Shown piece by piece: positions 23,617 to 28,367 of a stretch of 29,178 bases of DNA (within the stretch, counting starts at the first letter, position 1; every line of letters begins with the position of its first letter). The stretch is from a virus. The stretch spans positions 1-29,178 of IMG/VR virus record IMGVR_UViG_3300006920_000166, one strand, 5' to 3'. The notes below the pieces were generated by a model. That model had not been told where the DNA came from. It saw nothing but the letters and a program-made list of their open reading frames with translations, and did not search any database. Position numbers and translations under genes: made by a program.

Positions 23617-24375
23617 ATGGCTAAGGTCCTATTCTACGATATAGAAACTGCACCTAACCTCGCATACGTGTGGGGGCAGTATGAACAGAACGTGGTGCAG
23701 CAATACCGGGAGTGGTACATCATGTGCTTCTCCTACAAGTGGGAAGGGCAGAAAGCAGCTAAAGTAATTGCCCTCCCTGACTTTGACTTGTATACGGAAG
23801 ACCCAGAGGACGATCGGGAAGTTGTGCAAGCCTTATGGGATTTGTTTGACGAAGCTGATGTTGTGGTAGCTCACAACGGCGACAAGTTCGACATGAAGAA
23901 AGCTAACGCCCGGTTCATTGTGCATGACATGGGGCCACCTACGCCGGTGCATCAGATAGATACGTTGAAGGCTTCTAAACGGTACTTCAGGTTCAACAGC
24001 AACAAGCTTGACAACTTGGGTACGCATCTGAGTTTGGGCAACAAAGTAACAACTGGCGGGTTTCCTTTGTGGGAGGGGTGCATGAATGGTGATGAGAAGG
24101 CGTGGAACACGATGAAGAAGTACGCTCGCCAGGACGTTGACTTACTTGCAGATCTTTATTACAGGTTGCGTCCGTGGATGACAACTCATCCGAATCTTGC
24201 GTTGTTTGATGGTCGCCCTGATTCTTGTCCGACTTGTGGTCATGCTGATTTGATGCGTCGGGGGTATCGGTCTACGAAGGTTGCTCAGTACGCCCAGTTT
24301 CAATGCAAGAAATGTAAGGCGTATTGTCGTAAGCGTGTGAAGTCTGACGCTACGTCCCCTAACCTAGTGCCATGA
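23617..24375 (+). CDS. DnaQ/RNase H-like 3'-5' exonuclease with C-terminal zinc ribbon
   Basis: The product is 252 aa. VLFYDIETAPNLAYVWG gives the first acidic motif (Asp8, Glu10). VVVAHNGDKFDMKKANARF gives the second (Asp89 or Asp92). YARQDVDLLADLYYRLRPW gives the third (Asp173 or Asp175), so all metal ligands of the DEDD nuclease superfamily are present. Residues 204-235 form a zinc ribbon (CPTCGHADLMRRGYRS, then CKKC), probably for nucleic-acid binding. It degrades DNA or RNA from the 3' end or acts as an RNase H-like nuclease; the substrate is not shown. The gene lies at the end of the structural operon on the plus strand, away from the recombination genes, and overlaps the next gene by 4 bases. 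Confidence 0.75.
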   Translation: MAKVLFYDIETAPNLAYVWGQYEQNVVQQYREWYIMCFSYKWEGQKAAKVIALPDFDLYTEDPEDDREVVQALWDLFDEADVVVAHNGDKFDMKKANARFIVHDMGPPTPVHQIDTLKASKRYFRFNSNKLDNLGTHLSLGNKVTTGGFPLWEGCMNGDEKAWNTMKKYARQDVDLLADLYYRLRPWMTTHPNLALFDGRPDSCPTCGHADLMRRGYRSTKVAQYAQFQCKKCKAYCRKRVKSDATSPNLVP

Positions 24376-25145
24376 GAGTATTTTCATTCGGGGGTGGAGT
24401 TCAATCTACTGCTGCTTTGGTGCTTGCAGCTCAAGGCAAAATTGATTATAAAACTTTTATTTTTGCTGATACAGGGGACGAACACCCAGAAACGTACGAG
24501 TATTTAGAGAACGTCCATAAACCTTTTGCGACGGAACATGGGTTAGAAATTTTGTGTATAAAAAAAACGTGGAAAGACGGATCACAATATTCAATTCTTG
24601 AGAACATTGACCGGTTGCCATCAGCAATTCCGATACCTGTGTATTTAGATTCTGGGAAACCTTGGCAACGACAATGCACTGTAGATTGGAAAATTCATAC
24701 GATAGCTAAAGAGTTGAAACGTCTTGGTGCTACTAAAGATAACCCGGCTCATGTCGGCATGGGGATTAGCGTAGACGAAATACAAAGAGCTAAACCTAGC
24801 ACTATCCCTCACGAAACATTAGAGTTTCCTTTACTAGACTTGTTGTTACGAAGAGACGATTGTCATCGTATTGTTAAAGAAGCGGGTTTAGAGAAAGCTC
24901 CTCGTTCTGCTTGTTTCTATTGTCCGTACCATTCAACAGAGTATTGGCGAGATTTGCGGGAAGAGCAGCCAGTATTATTTGATAGAGCATTAGAGTTAGA
25001 AGATACTTTAAGCGCACGAACCCAAAAAAGGTTTGGGACTAGTGTGCATCTTTGGCGTAAAGGATCGTTAAGAGATTTAGATGACCAACAGCGTTTTGAT
25101 TTTGATGAACCTGATACTTGCGATTCTGGTCATTGCTTTACATAA
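24372..25145 (+). CDS. PAPS-reductase-like PP-loop protein
   Basis: The product is 257 aa. The N-terminus FSFGGGVQSTAALVLAAQG is the nucleotide-binding PP-loop, and FADTGDEHPETYEYLENV follows as in the phosphoadenosine phosphosulfate reductase/DndC-like superfamily. RQCTVDWKI (Cys102), DDCHRIV (Cys164) and RSACFYCPYHSTEYW (Cys181, Cys184) give four cysteines that could hold an iron-sulfur cluster. Family members activate or transfer sulfur, or adenylate a substrate; in phages their substrate is generally unknown, and DNA or tRNA modification is possible. Codon use is clearly more AT-rich than in the preceding genes, suggesting separate acquisition. It is the last gene before the convergent terminators. 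Confidence 0.72.
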   Translation: MRVFSFGGGVQSTAALVLAAQGKIDYKTFIFADTGDEHPETYEYLENVHKPFATEHGLEILCIKKTWKDGSQYSILENIDRLPSAIPIPVYLDSGKPWQRQCTVDWKIHTIAKELKRLGATKDNPAHVGMGISVDEIQRAKPSTIPHETLEFPLLDLLLRRDDCHRIVKEAGLEKAPRSACFYCPYHSTEYWRDLREEQPVLFDRALELEDTLSARTQKRFGTSVHLWRKGSLRDLDDQQRFDFDEPDTCDSGHCFT

Positions 25146-25162
25146 ATGTGTGGGTAAAAAGG

Positions 25163-25199
25163 TTTCTAGCCCAAGCGGTGTTGGTACCTGAGCTAGAAA
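25163..25199 (-). terminator. Rho-independent-type terminator for the minus-strand operon
   Basis: TTTCTAGC (25163-25170) and GCTAGAAA (25192-25199) form a perfect 8-bp stem with a 21-base loop. Read on the minus strand, the stem is followed after two bases by five T (25156-25160). It therefore suits transcripts arriving from the right, after the stop at 25277. Confidence 0.55.
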
Positions 25200-25205
25200 G
25201 AAATA

Positions 25206-25242
25206 CCCCCAACTAAGAAAAGAAACAAACTTAGCTGAGGGG
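25206..25242. other. Imperfect hairpin between the convergent operons
   Basis: CTAAG (25213-25217) pairs with CTTAG (25230-25234) around an A-rich 12-base loop. After mismatches the stem continues with a C-run against GGGG (25239-25242). It has no clear T-run of its own and lies between the two terminators. It may help insulate the operons. Confidence 0.3.
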
Positions 25243-25278
25243 AGCGCCCAAACCACTACGAAAAGGCGCTACATTTTT
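25243..25278 (+). terminator. Rho-independent-type terminator for the plus-strand late operon
   Basis: AGCGCC (25243-25248) and GGCGCT (25265-25270) form a 6-bp GC-rich stem with a 16-base loop, followed by ACA and five T (25274-25278). It suits plus-strand transcripts that leave the PP-loop gene. The T-run overlaps the stop codon of the minus-strand gene. Confidence 0.55.
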
Positions 25279-25582
25279 ATGATACCATACGAGTAACAGT
25301 TCCGTCACTATTTTCTACCCATTCCACAGTTTTCGGTTGAACTTTCTCTGGCTCAGGAGCCACATACGATACACGTAACTGGTATTCGACTGCGTTAACA
25401 GTGAAAGCTTTACACTTGTTTAAAGCATCTATGATAGCCAGCTCAGAGTACCCGGCTATTAGAGCACGCTTAACGATTGCCTGCACCATTTTCACTGACC
25501 CCATTGGCTTAGGGTGCGCTTGATCCCAATATTGTTTAGTGGTTTCTTCCGCTTCTACGTCAGTGATGAACTTGTCAGTCAC
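25277..25582 (-). CDS. Hypothetical protein, last gene of the minus-strand operon
   Basis: The product is 101 aa. The first two thirds are helical (DVEAEETTKQYWDQAH; SVKMVQAIVKRALIAGYSELAIIDALNKCKAFTV), with a three-helix look that could be a small DNA- or protein-binding module. The end is beta-like and polar (VEYQLRVSYV; VEWVENSDGTVTRMVS). It overlaps the WhiB-like gene by 8 bases, so the two are probably translated together. I do not recognise the family. Confidence 0.6.
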   Translation of the reverse strand: MTDKFITDVEAEETTKQYWDQAHPKPMGSVKMVQAIVKRALIAGYSELAIIDALNKCKAFTVNAVEYQLRVSYVAPEPEKVQPKTVEWVENSDGTVTRMVS

Positions 25583-25838
25583 CTTTGCCCAAGATTTTGA
25601 TTGCTGCGGCAGGTCTAAATTCGCATTCTTTCATTACGTTCCCTCTTTCGTAGGCTGAATGGCCGCCCCATGTTAACGACGGCATGTAGAAGTGGTTGAA
25701 CCAGTCGCCTACACAGAGTGCGTACGCTAAGCAGTCTCGTTTAACTGTGCAGTGTTGGTTACAGAACGAAGGTTTGATGTCTCCGGCTGGTATGCCTCGG
25801 CACGCAGCTTTCTGGTACCACCACGGCGTTTCGCTCAT
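25575..25838 (-). CDS. WhiB-like iron-sulfur transcriptional regulator
   Basis: The product is 87 aa. WYQKAACRG (Cys13), SFCNQHCTVKRDCLAYAL (Cys26, Cys30, Cys36) and LTWGGHSAYERGN are the signature elements of WhiB proteins: four cysteines that bind a 4Fe-4S cluster, then the W-G-G turn that contacts the host sigma factor. The family is restricted to actinobacteria and their phages, so this gene identifies the host phylum. The Cys spacing is unusual (C-x3-C where C-x2-C is the rule, and only 12 residues between the first two). In phages such proteins modulate host or phage promoters. It overlaps the methyltransferase stop by 4 bases (ATGA). Confidence 0.85.
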   Translation of the reverse strand: MSETPWWYQKAACRGIPAGDIKPSFCNQHCTVKRDCLAYALCVGDWFNHFYMPSLTWGGHSAYERGNVMKECEFRPAAAIKILGKGD

Positions 25839-26767
25839 TGCGTTAACACTTTGATAGCGTGATGTCCTTGTTGTGGTACGACTCCGTTGCCTAATAGTTT
25901 TAATAGGATGTTACGTTTCATCCCTGAGTTGCATACCCATCCGTGGGGTAGGCCCATCATCCATTCAACGAACCAGGGGTTTAGTTTGCCTTCGTCTACA
26001 GGTTTAGGCGCTGTTCTTCCCAATGTATTTTCCCATCTGGTGATGGCTGATCGGTATTGTCCCCAGGAAGTCTCGCTAACGCATTCTCTAGATTCTGTGG
26101 TTGGTCTAGTGGACGTTCCCAAATGTTCATGTTGCGTGCTTCTCCGTTCTGTGCCCGTGGTGTTGGCAACAGACGAACCTCTATAGACAAACTCTTCCCG
26201 TGACCGTTGCCGTTGTTGTGCTGCTCCCGCTTCTCCATTATCCAATTCTCCCACCACTCCACAGTCTTGTCGTCCCCCATGTCGTTCACTACTGGTGTCG
26301 GTAGCAACACAAAACCATCTAGCTCTTTGATGTGGCGCTCCGACATCGGAAGCTCGGACAATTCCCCAGCGCGAGTCATACCCCATTTCGGTAAGTGTTG
26401 CAACGACGGAGGTTCCTCCGAGAGTAAGGATGCCTGAGACATTCTCCAACACAACTGTTCCGGGTCGAAGAATCCTAATGGCGTCCCCGATATACTCAAA
26501 GATTGCTCGGTCATCTTCTAATCCTTTACGGTACCCGGCTGTACTAAATGGTTGGCACGGGAACCCGGCAGTCACAATGTCTACTTCATCGTAGTCATGC
26601 GGGTTAGTTTTGGTTACGTCTGTGAAAGGTTTAGCTCCGAAATGGGAAGACATTAAATCTATGGCTGGCTTATATATTTCTGAGAACCATGAGGTCTTAG
26701 CACCGTAGAACTGTTCTACTGCGAGGTCTAACCCTCCGTAACCTGAACAGAACGAACCTATCTTCAT
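25835..26767 (-). CDS. Cytosine-C5 DNA methyltransferase
   Basis: The product is 310 aa. Motif I (GSFCSGYGGLDLA, residues 4-16) binds S-adenosylmethionine. Motif IV (AGFPCQPFSTAG, catalytic Cys71), motif VI (LENV, 107-110), motif VIII (QRARW, 147-151) and motif X (GNGVVPQQ, 293-300) are all intact, so it should transfer methyl groups to cytosine C5. Between VIII and X, residues about 155-235 are hydrophilic and low in conserved features, then WGQYRSAITRWENTLGR and NPWFVEWMMGLPHGWV follow, as in actinobacterial phage enzymes. It probably protects phage DNA from host restriction. The start overlaps the nuclease stop (ATGA). Much of the gene also carries a second open frame (25996-26514). Confidence 0.9.
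   Translation of the reverse strand: MKIGSFCSGYGGLDLAVEQFYGAKTSWFSEIYKPAIDLMSSHFGAKPFTDVTKTNPHDYDEVDIVTAGFPCQPFSTAGYRKGLEDDRAIFEYIGDAIRILRPGTVVLENVSGILTLGGTSVVATLTEMGYDSRWGIVRASDVGAPHQRARWFCVATDTSSERHGGRQDCGVVGELDNGEAGAAQQRQRSREEFVYRGSSVANTTGTERRSTQHEHLGTSTRPTTESRECVSETSWGQYRSAITRWENTLGRTAPKPVDEGKLNPWFVEWMMGLPHGWVCNSGMKRNILLKLLGNGVVPQQGHHAIKVLTQ
25996..26514 (-). CDS. Overprinted 172-aa frame inside the methyltransferase gene
   Basis: This ORF lies one base out of phase inside the methyltransferase gene, covering that protein's residues 85-258. It begins with ATG one codon after an in-frame TAG, and AAAGGA lies 7 bases before the ATG. The product has LGFFDPEQLCWRMSQASLL, a KWGMTRAGELSELPM segment, LLPTPVVNDMG (70-80), an NGNGHGKSLSIEVRLLPTP block (to 119), and a GDNTDQPSPDGKIHWEEQ end. 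I recall LLPTP-containing sequences of this kind from actinophage proteins, both free-standing and fused into methyltransferases, but cannot verify that here. Length alone is not proof, since antisense shadow frames of similar length occur in this window. The ribosome-site-like bases also encode the enzyme's KGLEDDR segment. Function unknown. Confidence 0.5.
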   Translation of the reverse strand: MTEQSLSISGTPLGFFDPEQLCWRMSQASLLSEEPPSLQHLPKWGMTRAGELSELPMSERHIKELDGFVLLPTPVVNDMGDDKTVEWWENWIMEKREQHNNGNGHGKSLSIEVRLLPTPRAQNGEARNMNIWERPLDQPQNLENALARLPGDNTDQPSPDGKIHWEEQRLNL

Positions 26768-27099
26768 TGGTCTATTAGCTCAGTCCACAACCACAACGGC
26801 ATCACCACATACGCATCCTTAACGCCCTTGTTACGGCGCTTCACAATCGCAGCGAACCATCTAGACCCAGCGTTACGTCCCTCAGCTTCAGCTTCATCCA
26901 CGAAACCAGCCAAGTTAATTTGCTTATGGTCTTTGAGTTCTAAGCACCACTCAGAAAGGCACCCGTCCCCGATCAGATCTCCCTTGTCTTCAGCACCGGC
27001 CAGTGCTCTTCGTTCTACCCATGCGCCTGTTTCGGCGGATAGGTATCTGACAACGGCTGTCTCGAAGGCGGTGCCCTTCTGCTTGGCACGATTTACCAT
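26764..27099 (-). CDS. PD-(D/E)XK nuclease, Holliday-junction-resolvase-like
   Basis: The product is 111 aa from the ATG at 27099, one base after the previous stop; an upstream in-frame ATG at 27132 would overlap the previous gene by 32 bases and is less likely. KQKGTAFETAVVRYL provides Glu13. RALAGAEDKGDLIG provides Asp41. CLELKDHKQINL provides Glu54-x-Lys56. Together they form the E...D...ExK pattern of the restriction-endonuclease-like fold seen in archaeal-type resolvases and related phage nucleases. A C-terminal RWFAAIVKRRNKGVKDAYVVMPL strand-helix completes the fold. It probably cuts branched DNA in recombination or before packaging. It overlaps the methyltransferase start by 4 bases. 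Confidence 0.72.
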   Translation of the reverse strand: MVNRAKQKGTAFETAVVRYLSAETGAWVERRALAGAEDKGDLIGDGCLSEWCLELKDHKQINLAGFVDEAEAEGRNAGSRWFAAIVKRRNKGVKDAYVVMPLWLWTELIDQ

Positions 27100-27100
27100 C

Positions 27101-27394
27101 TTACTCTTCTTCCTGGTCTTTCCACCAATCAAACCTAAAAGTCACAGTGGTTTCTTCATCGTCCATTTCAAACAGCAGTTCACGTATCGCCGCCTGGATA
27201 ATGTTACTTCGGAAAGCCCACATTGGTAGCGCAGCGACTTCAGGGGGACACCCTGGATGCTTACGCATACTATCCCCGTAAACATCTAGCTCTAAAAGCA
27301 GGTCGCTTGGGATAGCCACCGCTACGAAATCTGTATCGTACGGGACTTCCAAAGCAATTTGCTCGTAGCCATGTGAATTGTTCACAGACTCCAT
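27101..27394 (-). CDS. Hypothetical acidic protein
   Basis: The product is 97 aa. I choose the ATG at 27394, one base after the stop of the small ribbon-helix-helix gene; a longer frame from 27433 would overlap that gene. GYEQIALEVPYDTDFVAVAIPSDLLLELDVYG is beta/alpha, then MWAFRSNIIQAAIRELLFEM is a helix, and the end is a strand with an acidic tail (TVTFRFDWWKDQEEE). No known motif. Its place between recombination genes suggests a helper in DNA metabolism or regulation. Confidence 0.65.
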   Translation of the reverse strand: MESVNNSHGYEQIALEVPYDTDFVAVAIPSDLLLELDVYGDSMRKHPGCPPEVAALPMWAFRSNIIQAAIRELLFEMDDEETTVTFRFDWWKDQEEE

Positions 27395-27395
27395 A

Positions 27396-27554
27396 CTACA
27401 CGTACGCCTCTCTGTAGAGCTTGAGTGCGTCACGGATAATATCGGATTGGCTTTTGTTGTTCATCACAGCAGCCGCCTTAATGTACTCCATCTCATGCTG
27501 ATACAACCGGACGTTTATAGCAACTGATCGTTTATTGTTAGTGTCTATGTACAT
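27396..27554 (-). CDS. Ribbon-helix-helix DNA-binding protein, 52 aa
   Basis: This small gene fills the gap between the SSB gene and the next one. Its ATG shares a base with the SSB stop (TAATG), and its TAG lies one base before the next ATG. The product begins MYIDTNNKRSVAINVRLYQ (beta-strand with Arg, Asn and Ser in alternating positions). It continues EMEYIKAAAVMNNKSQSDIIRDALKLYREAYV (two helices joined by a turn), the typical CopG/Arc layout. Such proteins dimerise and insert the strand into the DNA major groove. It could be a repressor acting on the early operon or on the promoter at 12402-12430. Confidence 0.75.
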   Translation of the reverse strand: MYIDTNNKRSVAINVRLYQHEMEYIKAAAVMNNKSQSDIIRDALKLYREAYV

Positions 27555-27973
27555 TAGAAAGGCTCCTCATCTGTAGCGAACGCAGCCTGAACAGTCTTAA
27601 CTGCTGCTGTGTCTTTCGGTGTAGAAGCAATACCGTCAGGTACTGAAGCTCCCTCGAAACGCATTGACAGTGACACGTCGTCAGCTACTACCGCTAACTT
27701 CGATCTTTTCTGCCCTTCTTTAGTTTCCCATTGAGAGAAATCTAGGCGTCCCGTTACGGTAATCCTTTTGCCTTTAGCGCAGGACTCCGCAATGTTCTCA
27801 CCTAACGTTTCCCAGGCTGAGCAGTCAATGTAATGTGCTTGTTTCTCACCGTCCTTTTTCATCTGGTTCCATGCGATACTGAAATCGCAGATAGCTTTAC
27901 CGCTACTTGTGAACCGTAGTTCGGGGTCTCTTGTAAGATTCCCAGTGAGTGTTACAGTATTTCCGTTAGCCAT
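27554..27973 (-). CDS. ssb: Single-stranded DNA-binding protein
   Basis: The product is 139 aa with an OB-fold. NTVTLTGNLTRDPELRFTSSGKAICDFSIAWN is the classical start. HYIDCSAWETLGENIAESCAKGKRITVTGRLDFSQWETKEGQKRSKLAVVADDVS is the core, including the Trp and basic residues that bind DNA. A short linker ends in the acidic tip DEEPF, which recruits partner enzymes. It covers ssDNA during phage replication and annealing. It overlaps the annealing-protein gene by 8 bases. The length is shorter than typical bacterial SSB because the linker is reduced. Confidence 0.92.
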   Translation of the reverse strand: MANGNTVTLTGNLTRDPELRFTSSGKAICDFSIAWNQMKKDGEKQAHYIDCSAWETLGENIAESCAKGKRITVTGRLDFSQWETKEGQKRSKLAVVADDVSLSMRFEGASVPDGIASTPKDTAAVKTVQAAFATDEEPF

Positions 27974-28367
27974 TGCTTTCTTCTTTCTTTAATAGTGCGT
28001 CATACAGGTAGTAGTTATCTTGCGCCCAGAGATGCAGACCCAAACCTAACCTCATAGCGCAACGCTTGAGTGCGTCGCTGATACCTTCTTTGAGAAGCTC
28101 TCCGCTATCAGACATTGATCGTGTACCGATACCTCCCGCTTCTTCTACGGTCACTTCACGGCCATCAATGGTGCAGGTTAGAGCTACGATTACTCCATCG
28201 ACTTTACCGTCCACATAGATGATGTGTTTTACTTCTATATTGTGTGGACCTACGATGCCTAAAAGGTTTTGTGATACTTCCGAGTGGGAGACGTAATCAA
28301 ACTTGCCTTTTTTGTCAACGTATCGTGGGTGGAATGGTTTAGCTAACTTAGTTAATTGCTCAGACAT
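27966..28367 (-). CDS. Rad52/Sak-like single-strand annealing protein
   Basis: The product is 133 aa. FDYVSHSEVSQNLLGIVGPHN, VDGVIVALTCTIDGREVTVEEAGG and ELLKEGISDALKRCAMRLGLGLHLW make up a beta-beta-alpha fold, with the helix motif (SDALKRC-x-x-LG-x-G-x-x-LW) that is typical of Rad52-like phage annealing proteins. It pairs complementary single strands in recombination-dependent replication, with SSB encoded directly downstream and a RecB/Cas4-like nuclease upstream. The protein is short for the family (often 150-250 aa), so the C-terminal partner-binding tail is minimal. It overlaps both neighbours by 8 bases. Confidence 0.78.
   Translation of the reverse strand: MSEQLTKLAKPFHPRYVDKKGKFDYVSHSEVSQNLLGIVGPHNIEVKHIIYVDGKVDGVIVALTCTIDGREVTVEEAGGIGTRSMSDSGELLKEGISDALKRCAMRLGLGLHLWAQDNYYLYDALLKKEESNG

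Follow-up and report, generated by a model that had tools for sequence, protein, structure and literature searches.

This locus raises the question of whether a cytosine methyltransferase gene in a viral genome fragment carries a second gene written over it in another reading frame and, if so, what the second product would contribute. The window, the whole stretch of DNA that was analysed, comprised 29,178 nt (IMG/VR record IMGVR_UViG_3300006920_000166). To our knowledge, few long genes nested on the same strand are solidly supported in dsDNA phages or in cellular organisms. The enclosing gene and the frame nested within it are designated alpha and beta.

The methyltransferase gene and its nested frame

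Alpha (complement 25835..26767) encodes a complete C5-cytosine DNA methyltransferase of 310 aa. It was assigned as such by PF00145 (E 2e-40; 139.4 bits against a curated cut-off of 22), with further matches to TIGR00675, above its cut-off, and to phrog_363 (E 3e-55). All catalytic motifs were found, including the catalytic PC, ENV and motifs VIII-X, and the stretches GFPCQP, LENV, GAPHQRAR, LNPWFVEWMMG and GNGVVPQQ were read. The motif VI core (ENV) is located at complement 26438..26446, where the +1 frame reads it within the WRxS of beta. By sequence, the motif IX region (LNPWFVEWMMGLPHGW; complement 25940..25984) lies downstream of the beta stop, and motif X (LLGNGVVPQQ) is at complement 25868..25897.

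Beta (complement 25996..26514) lies wholly within alpha, one base out of phase (+1), and has 172 codons; its assignment draws on phrog_1008, on relatives and on alpha synonymous sites. The initial annotation had described this frame with the same coordinates, phase and length, with an ATG one codon past an in-frame TAG, with the ribosome-binding-site-like AAAGGA (complement 26522..26527) 7 bases before the ATG, and with LLPTP twice, 45 residues apart; all of these features were found as described, the two LLPTP being at residues 70 and 115. Its caution that antisense frames of similar length occur elsewhere in the window was likewise borne out, antisense or other frames of such length being present. 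The length of beta alone is therefore insufficient as proof, for which the conservation tests given below suffice.

Beta was divided into an N-terminal domain (FDPExxCWRxSQ ... LPKWGMTRAGEL; complement 26311..26514), which lies over alpha motifs VI-VIII, LLPTP module 1 (VVNDMGDDKT...NGNGHGKSLSIEVR; complement 26173..26307) and LLPTP module 2 (RAQNGEARNMNIWERPLDQPQNLENALARL; complement 26065..26172), which stands in first to fourth place in other phages. The modules are about 25-45 residues long and shuffleable, and they take up different places from phage to phage. No tandem DNA repeat was found behind the two modules of the window.

Selection on the two frames

The length of the +1 frame was compared with synonymous-codon shuffles of the window alpha. 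A +1 frame of at least 173 codons arose in 0 of 5000 shuffles, the mean +1 length over 1000 shuffles being 65 codons; the +2 frame and the three antisense frames showed no excess over the same null. Eighty related loci were taken from an IMG/VR scan by alpha residues 1-100 alone, which are upstream of beta. An HMM of the beta N-domain matched the +1 frame in 57/57 non-redundant full-length loci picked in this way; since these very loci had served to build the HMM, which may in part mirror the underlying alpha motifs, the weight rests on the shuffle, synonymous-site and pair tests. Against the synonymous null, +1 length gave p<=0.01 in 31 of the 36 loci with GC <0.58, and +2 length gave p<=0.05 in just one of 57. 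The beta frame stays open in AT-rich genomes (GC 0.41-0.50), and in one locus that at first seemed to have no beta, the frame is present but shortened to 89 codons. Two checks proposed at the outset were thus run, on stop codons in the +1 frame of relatives and on independent homologues of its product: the frame stays open, and the homologues exist.

Synonymous-site conservation was measured over 53 alphas of <90% identity. The ratio of observed to expected codon identity was 1.10 over alpha codons 1-83, 1.60 over codons 85-157 and 1.06 over codons 258-310, and the step coincides with the start of beta. Single codons were strongly biased: V110 was GTC in 44/53 alphas (expected 16), L125 was CTT in 42/49 (expected 8), G129 was GGG in 49/52 (expected 11) and D85 was GAT, the codon that creates the beta ATG, in 42/51 (expected 21). 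A replicate set, independent of the first, comprised 67 alphas that a beta C-terminal pattern had picked out in cellular genomes across many phyla; it gave ratios of 1.07-1.24 upstream and 1.45-1.74 across the overlap; A18 (counted from ENV) was GCC in 56/56 and one glycine was GGG in 61/63. The excess synonymous-site conservation in alpha, a further check proposed at the outset, was found precisely over beta.

The constraint on each frame was assessed with segment pairs picked by blastn nucleotide similarity regardless of frame. An earlier test of the modules had picked pairs by beta similarity, a biased choice, and its result held with the nucleotide-picked pairs. In the LLPTP region, amino acid identity in beta was 0.677 vs 0.457 under random placement of the differences, and that in alpha was 0.447 vs 0.461, as for unconstrained drift; the fastest-changing position was the third codon position of beta, and over module 1 beta alone was constrained. 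Over motifs VI-VIII, beneath the beta N-terminal domain, both frames were above random (beta 0.453 vs 0.411, alpha 0.608 vs 0.421), and outside the overlap +1 frame identity was below random. These pairs point to alpha as the coding frame as far as motif VIII and once more from motif IX onwards, to beta alone between those two motifs, and to both frames over motifs VI-VIII. Selection was found on both frames over shared bases, and the comparisons confirm, at the level of sequence, that beta is a genuine protein-coding gene overprinted on alpha. The overprinting first noticed in this gene is real, though not peculiar to it, being widespread and akin to that of M.EcoHK31I and Corndog gp6/gp7.

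Relatives, architectures and known split enzymes

Beta found no match in Pfam, in NCBIfam or in a sequence search of the PDB. It matched phrog_1008 ('DNA methyltransferase'; E 4e-10), with beta residues 8-131 on profile positions 68-214, as did 48/50 beta relatives. The profile continues into the motif IX-X region (positions 217-318), beyond the part spanned by beta; in the window this region is in the alpha frame, the alpha C-terminus matching positions 217-318. Because beta and the alpha C-terminus match one profile, the pieces form one protein in some phages. The initial annotation had mentioned LLPTP proteins fused between motif VIII and the WGxYxxAIxRWE region, and such fused forms were found, in which the alpha frame itself contains LLPTP modules in the interval from motif VIII to motif IX. 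Module 1 of the window is 63% identical over 56 aa (E 8e-22) to a module fused in the alpha of locus L116.

In cellular genomes, 76/80 beta relatives chosen by beta alone lay over an alpha frame containing PCQ and ENV. Many phyla were represented, among them the Euryarchaeota with a MAG from Guaymas, which shows a split-type alpha/beta overlap on a contig that could be viral or misbinned.

Four architectures were defined from hand-checked examples, a regex classification having missed many motif IX variants. In type A, alpha is complete and beta is nested and unannotated (the window, many IMG/VR loci, mycobacteriophage Papez, Gordonia phage JKSyngboy). In type B, alpha goes no further than motif VIII, and the modules plus motifs IX and X are in beta (Streptomyces phages Lilbooboo, phiBT1 and Samy; Gordonia phages Upyo and Float294; Corndog-type Dylan). 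Type C has motif IX in beta and keeps motif X in alpha (phage ctjLE16, Synechococcus phage S-H1, Microcystis phage Mwe-JY08, Leptospira and Nostoc plasmids, the E. coli ETEC H10407 prophage). In type D, found in Rita, Fancypants and prophiGD91-2, the beta N-domain is in the +1 frame and further LLPTP modules are in the alpha frame.

These arrangements were compared with known two-part enzymes. M.EcoHK31I is an E. coli enzyme (YGGCCR). Lee, Kam and Shaw reportedly described in 1995 that its beta is encoded inside the alpha gene in another frame, and the two polypeptides are reportedly near 310 and 172 aa and both required for methylation in vitro. The window shares with it, as so described, a second polypeptide within the alpha gene in another frame. 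M.EcoHK31I is a natural two-polypeptide C5-methyltransferase in which alpha has motifs I-VIII and X and beta has motif IX (PMC3404938). Unlike this enzyme, the window keeps motif IX in alpha, and its beta stops before it; the exact M.EcoHK31I plan was found in ctjLE16, Synechococcus phage S-H1, the Leptospira and Nostoc plasmids and the E. coli ETEC prophage. M.AquI is a natural split C5 enzyme with motifs I-VIII in one chain and IX-X in the other (PMC3404938), a split which the type B phages resemble, whereas the window alpha is not split in this way. In the Corndog-type cluster O mycobacteriophages, the methylase genes gp7 and gp6 overlap in different frames (PMC4351075), by 209 nt in Dylan; in these phages motif VIII is the last one in alpha, motifs IX and X being in beta, whereas the window has a complete alpha that encloses the whole of beta.

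The overlap in the window is a variation on known, poorly explored split or nested methyltransferases, and it differs from the closest of them, M.EcoHK31I and Corndog gp6/gp7, in keeping motif IX in alpha. Nested beta recurs among phages and plasmids and in genomes across many phyla, mostly unannotated. Literature searches, whose reach was papers outside subscription, returned no description of widespread nested beta, a weak sign of novelty.

Beta as a putative second subunit

In C5 enzymes the target-recognition domain sits between motifs VIII and IX. The LLPTP modules stand at this position in fused and split enzymes, and in the split types B and D they fill the VIII-IX gap and are the only material there, which suggests that beta would give target recognition. 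The favoured reading, to which a probability of roughly 0.7 was assigned, is that beta is a separately translated nested gene for a second methyltransferase subunit, its modules most likely serving target recognition in trans. Translation of beta would start inside the alpha gene, at an ATG and ribosome site of its own, and alpha would supply the catalytic core (motifs I-VIII, IX and X), the alpha reading between motifs VIII and IX being an unconstrained linker where the target-recognition domain should be. Beta would dock on alpha and its LLPTP modules would most likely supply the recognition; the phage could then methylate its own DNA with the alpha/beta pair, countering host restriction, and module shuffling would alter the target set. 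From sequence we infer that alpha and beta are both produced and form a complex, and that DNA is read by the modules. With all motifs present, alpha might in principle act alone.

An unlikely, though not negligible, alternative is that beta is real but serves as an assembly or scaffold subunit or as a regulator of the methyltransferase, the LLPTP modules being used otherwise, for example against a host restriction factor. The overlap with alpha in 76/80 beta-chosen loci would fit any alpha partner, and in hybrid phages alpha has LLPTP modules of its own and yet the beta N-domain is retained. Structure prediction is also compatible with such a role, as neither AlphaFold model gives a target-recognition fold: beta alone was modelled poorly (pLDDT 65, pTM 0.30), a fold search of the PDB with this poor model found nothing, and in a fused LLPTP enzyme the catalytic core was well folded and the LLPTP region unfolded (pLDDT <50), which makes that model uninformative on the modules. 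What argues for recognition instead is the placing of the modules at the target-recognition position in the fused enzymes, and as sole material there in types B and D.

It is very improbable that programmed frameshifting or hopping from alpha to beta and back to alpha makes one fused enzyme. Such a route was raised for Corndog gp6/gp7, whose authors reported that the gp6 frame has coding potential across the overlap with gp7 and that gp7 contains a strong ribosome site, and left two products, a frameshift, a hop or an intron as options (PMC4351075); mass spectrometry identified neither product (PMC4351075). The LLPTP modules in the alpha frame of related phages would also suit it. However, selection already acts on the beta codons that lie over alpha motifs VI-VIII, upstream of any point where a shift would be of use, and in the window a fusion with alpha motifs IX-X would require two shifts. 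Beta is also predicted to have its own conserved start and ribosome site: a +1 ATG was present at alpha codons 83-88 in 46/53 loci, against 23.8 expected from synonymous shuffles, and an ATG together with an SD core of at least 4 bases in 43/53 relatives, against 20.3. A single frameshift product was ruled out by the two-frame selection over motifs VI-VIII together with the conserved start. The initial annotation had offered dual coding or a frameshift to a fused enzyme; homologues, the open frame and the synonymous sites uphold the first, and selection on beta over motifs VI-VIII and its own start tell against the second. The cluster O question of two products or a frameshift would likewise be answered in favour of two products.

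Scarcely credible is a non-coding shadow held open and similar by alpha motifs and codon bias, for although long +1 frames arise by chance in GC-rich relatives and some beta residues are forced by alpha motifs, alpha synonymous sites are frozen over beta alone, and this in two independent data sets, the alpha reading of the modules is unconstrained where beta is conserved, AT-rich genomes (GC 0.41-0.50) keep the frame open, and a shadow ORF was ruled out by the synonymous-shuffle, synonymous-site and pair tests.

The odds are about even that a large and mostly unannotated class of DNA methyltransferases, spread over phages, plasmids and the genomes of many phyla, encodes its target-recognition modules in a second frame of the catalytic gene, the modules being dual-use cassettes moved between frames, in trans as nested beta and in cis in alpha. 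Were this true, a change of frame could rewire specificity, as could shuffling. The nested arrangement also offers a handle, possibly a modular one, on methyltransferase specificity.

Dual frames lead annotators to call now one frame and now the other. In Acidovorax phage Alfacinha3 (736-1902 of the locus) and Pseudomonas phage LPPA33 (844-1446) beta was called as the gene and the methyltransferase frame of alpha was passed over, opposite to the usual error. In phiBT1 (1339-2268), gp9.1 is annotated 'DNA methylase may be inactive', and its missing motifs IX-X are in an unannotated overlapping +1 frame. In the E. coli ETEC H10407 prophage (739-1653), an unannotated type C beta (GWPTPAASD...) lies under an annotated 'DNA cytosine methyltransferase' whose alpha is without motif IX; methyltransferase genes related to this one were found by blastn in 56 E. 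coli genomes, beta being inspected in the H10407 copy only. In mycobacteriophage Jarcob (1201-2371) a lesion puts the downstream methyltransferase half in the +1 frame, and the beta N-domain runs directly into alpha motif VIII, apparently in a frame-broken relative of Rita.

Genes near alpha (window positions 23617-28367) encode an RNase H-like exonuclease, a PAPS-reductase-family protein, an SSB and a Rad52-like protein. A small Cys-rich gene, WhiB-like by eye and with no Pfam match, begins on the alpha stop in an ATGA overlap; this gene and its neighbours suggest an actinophage.
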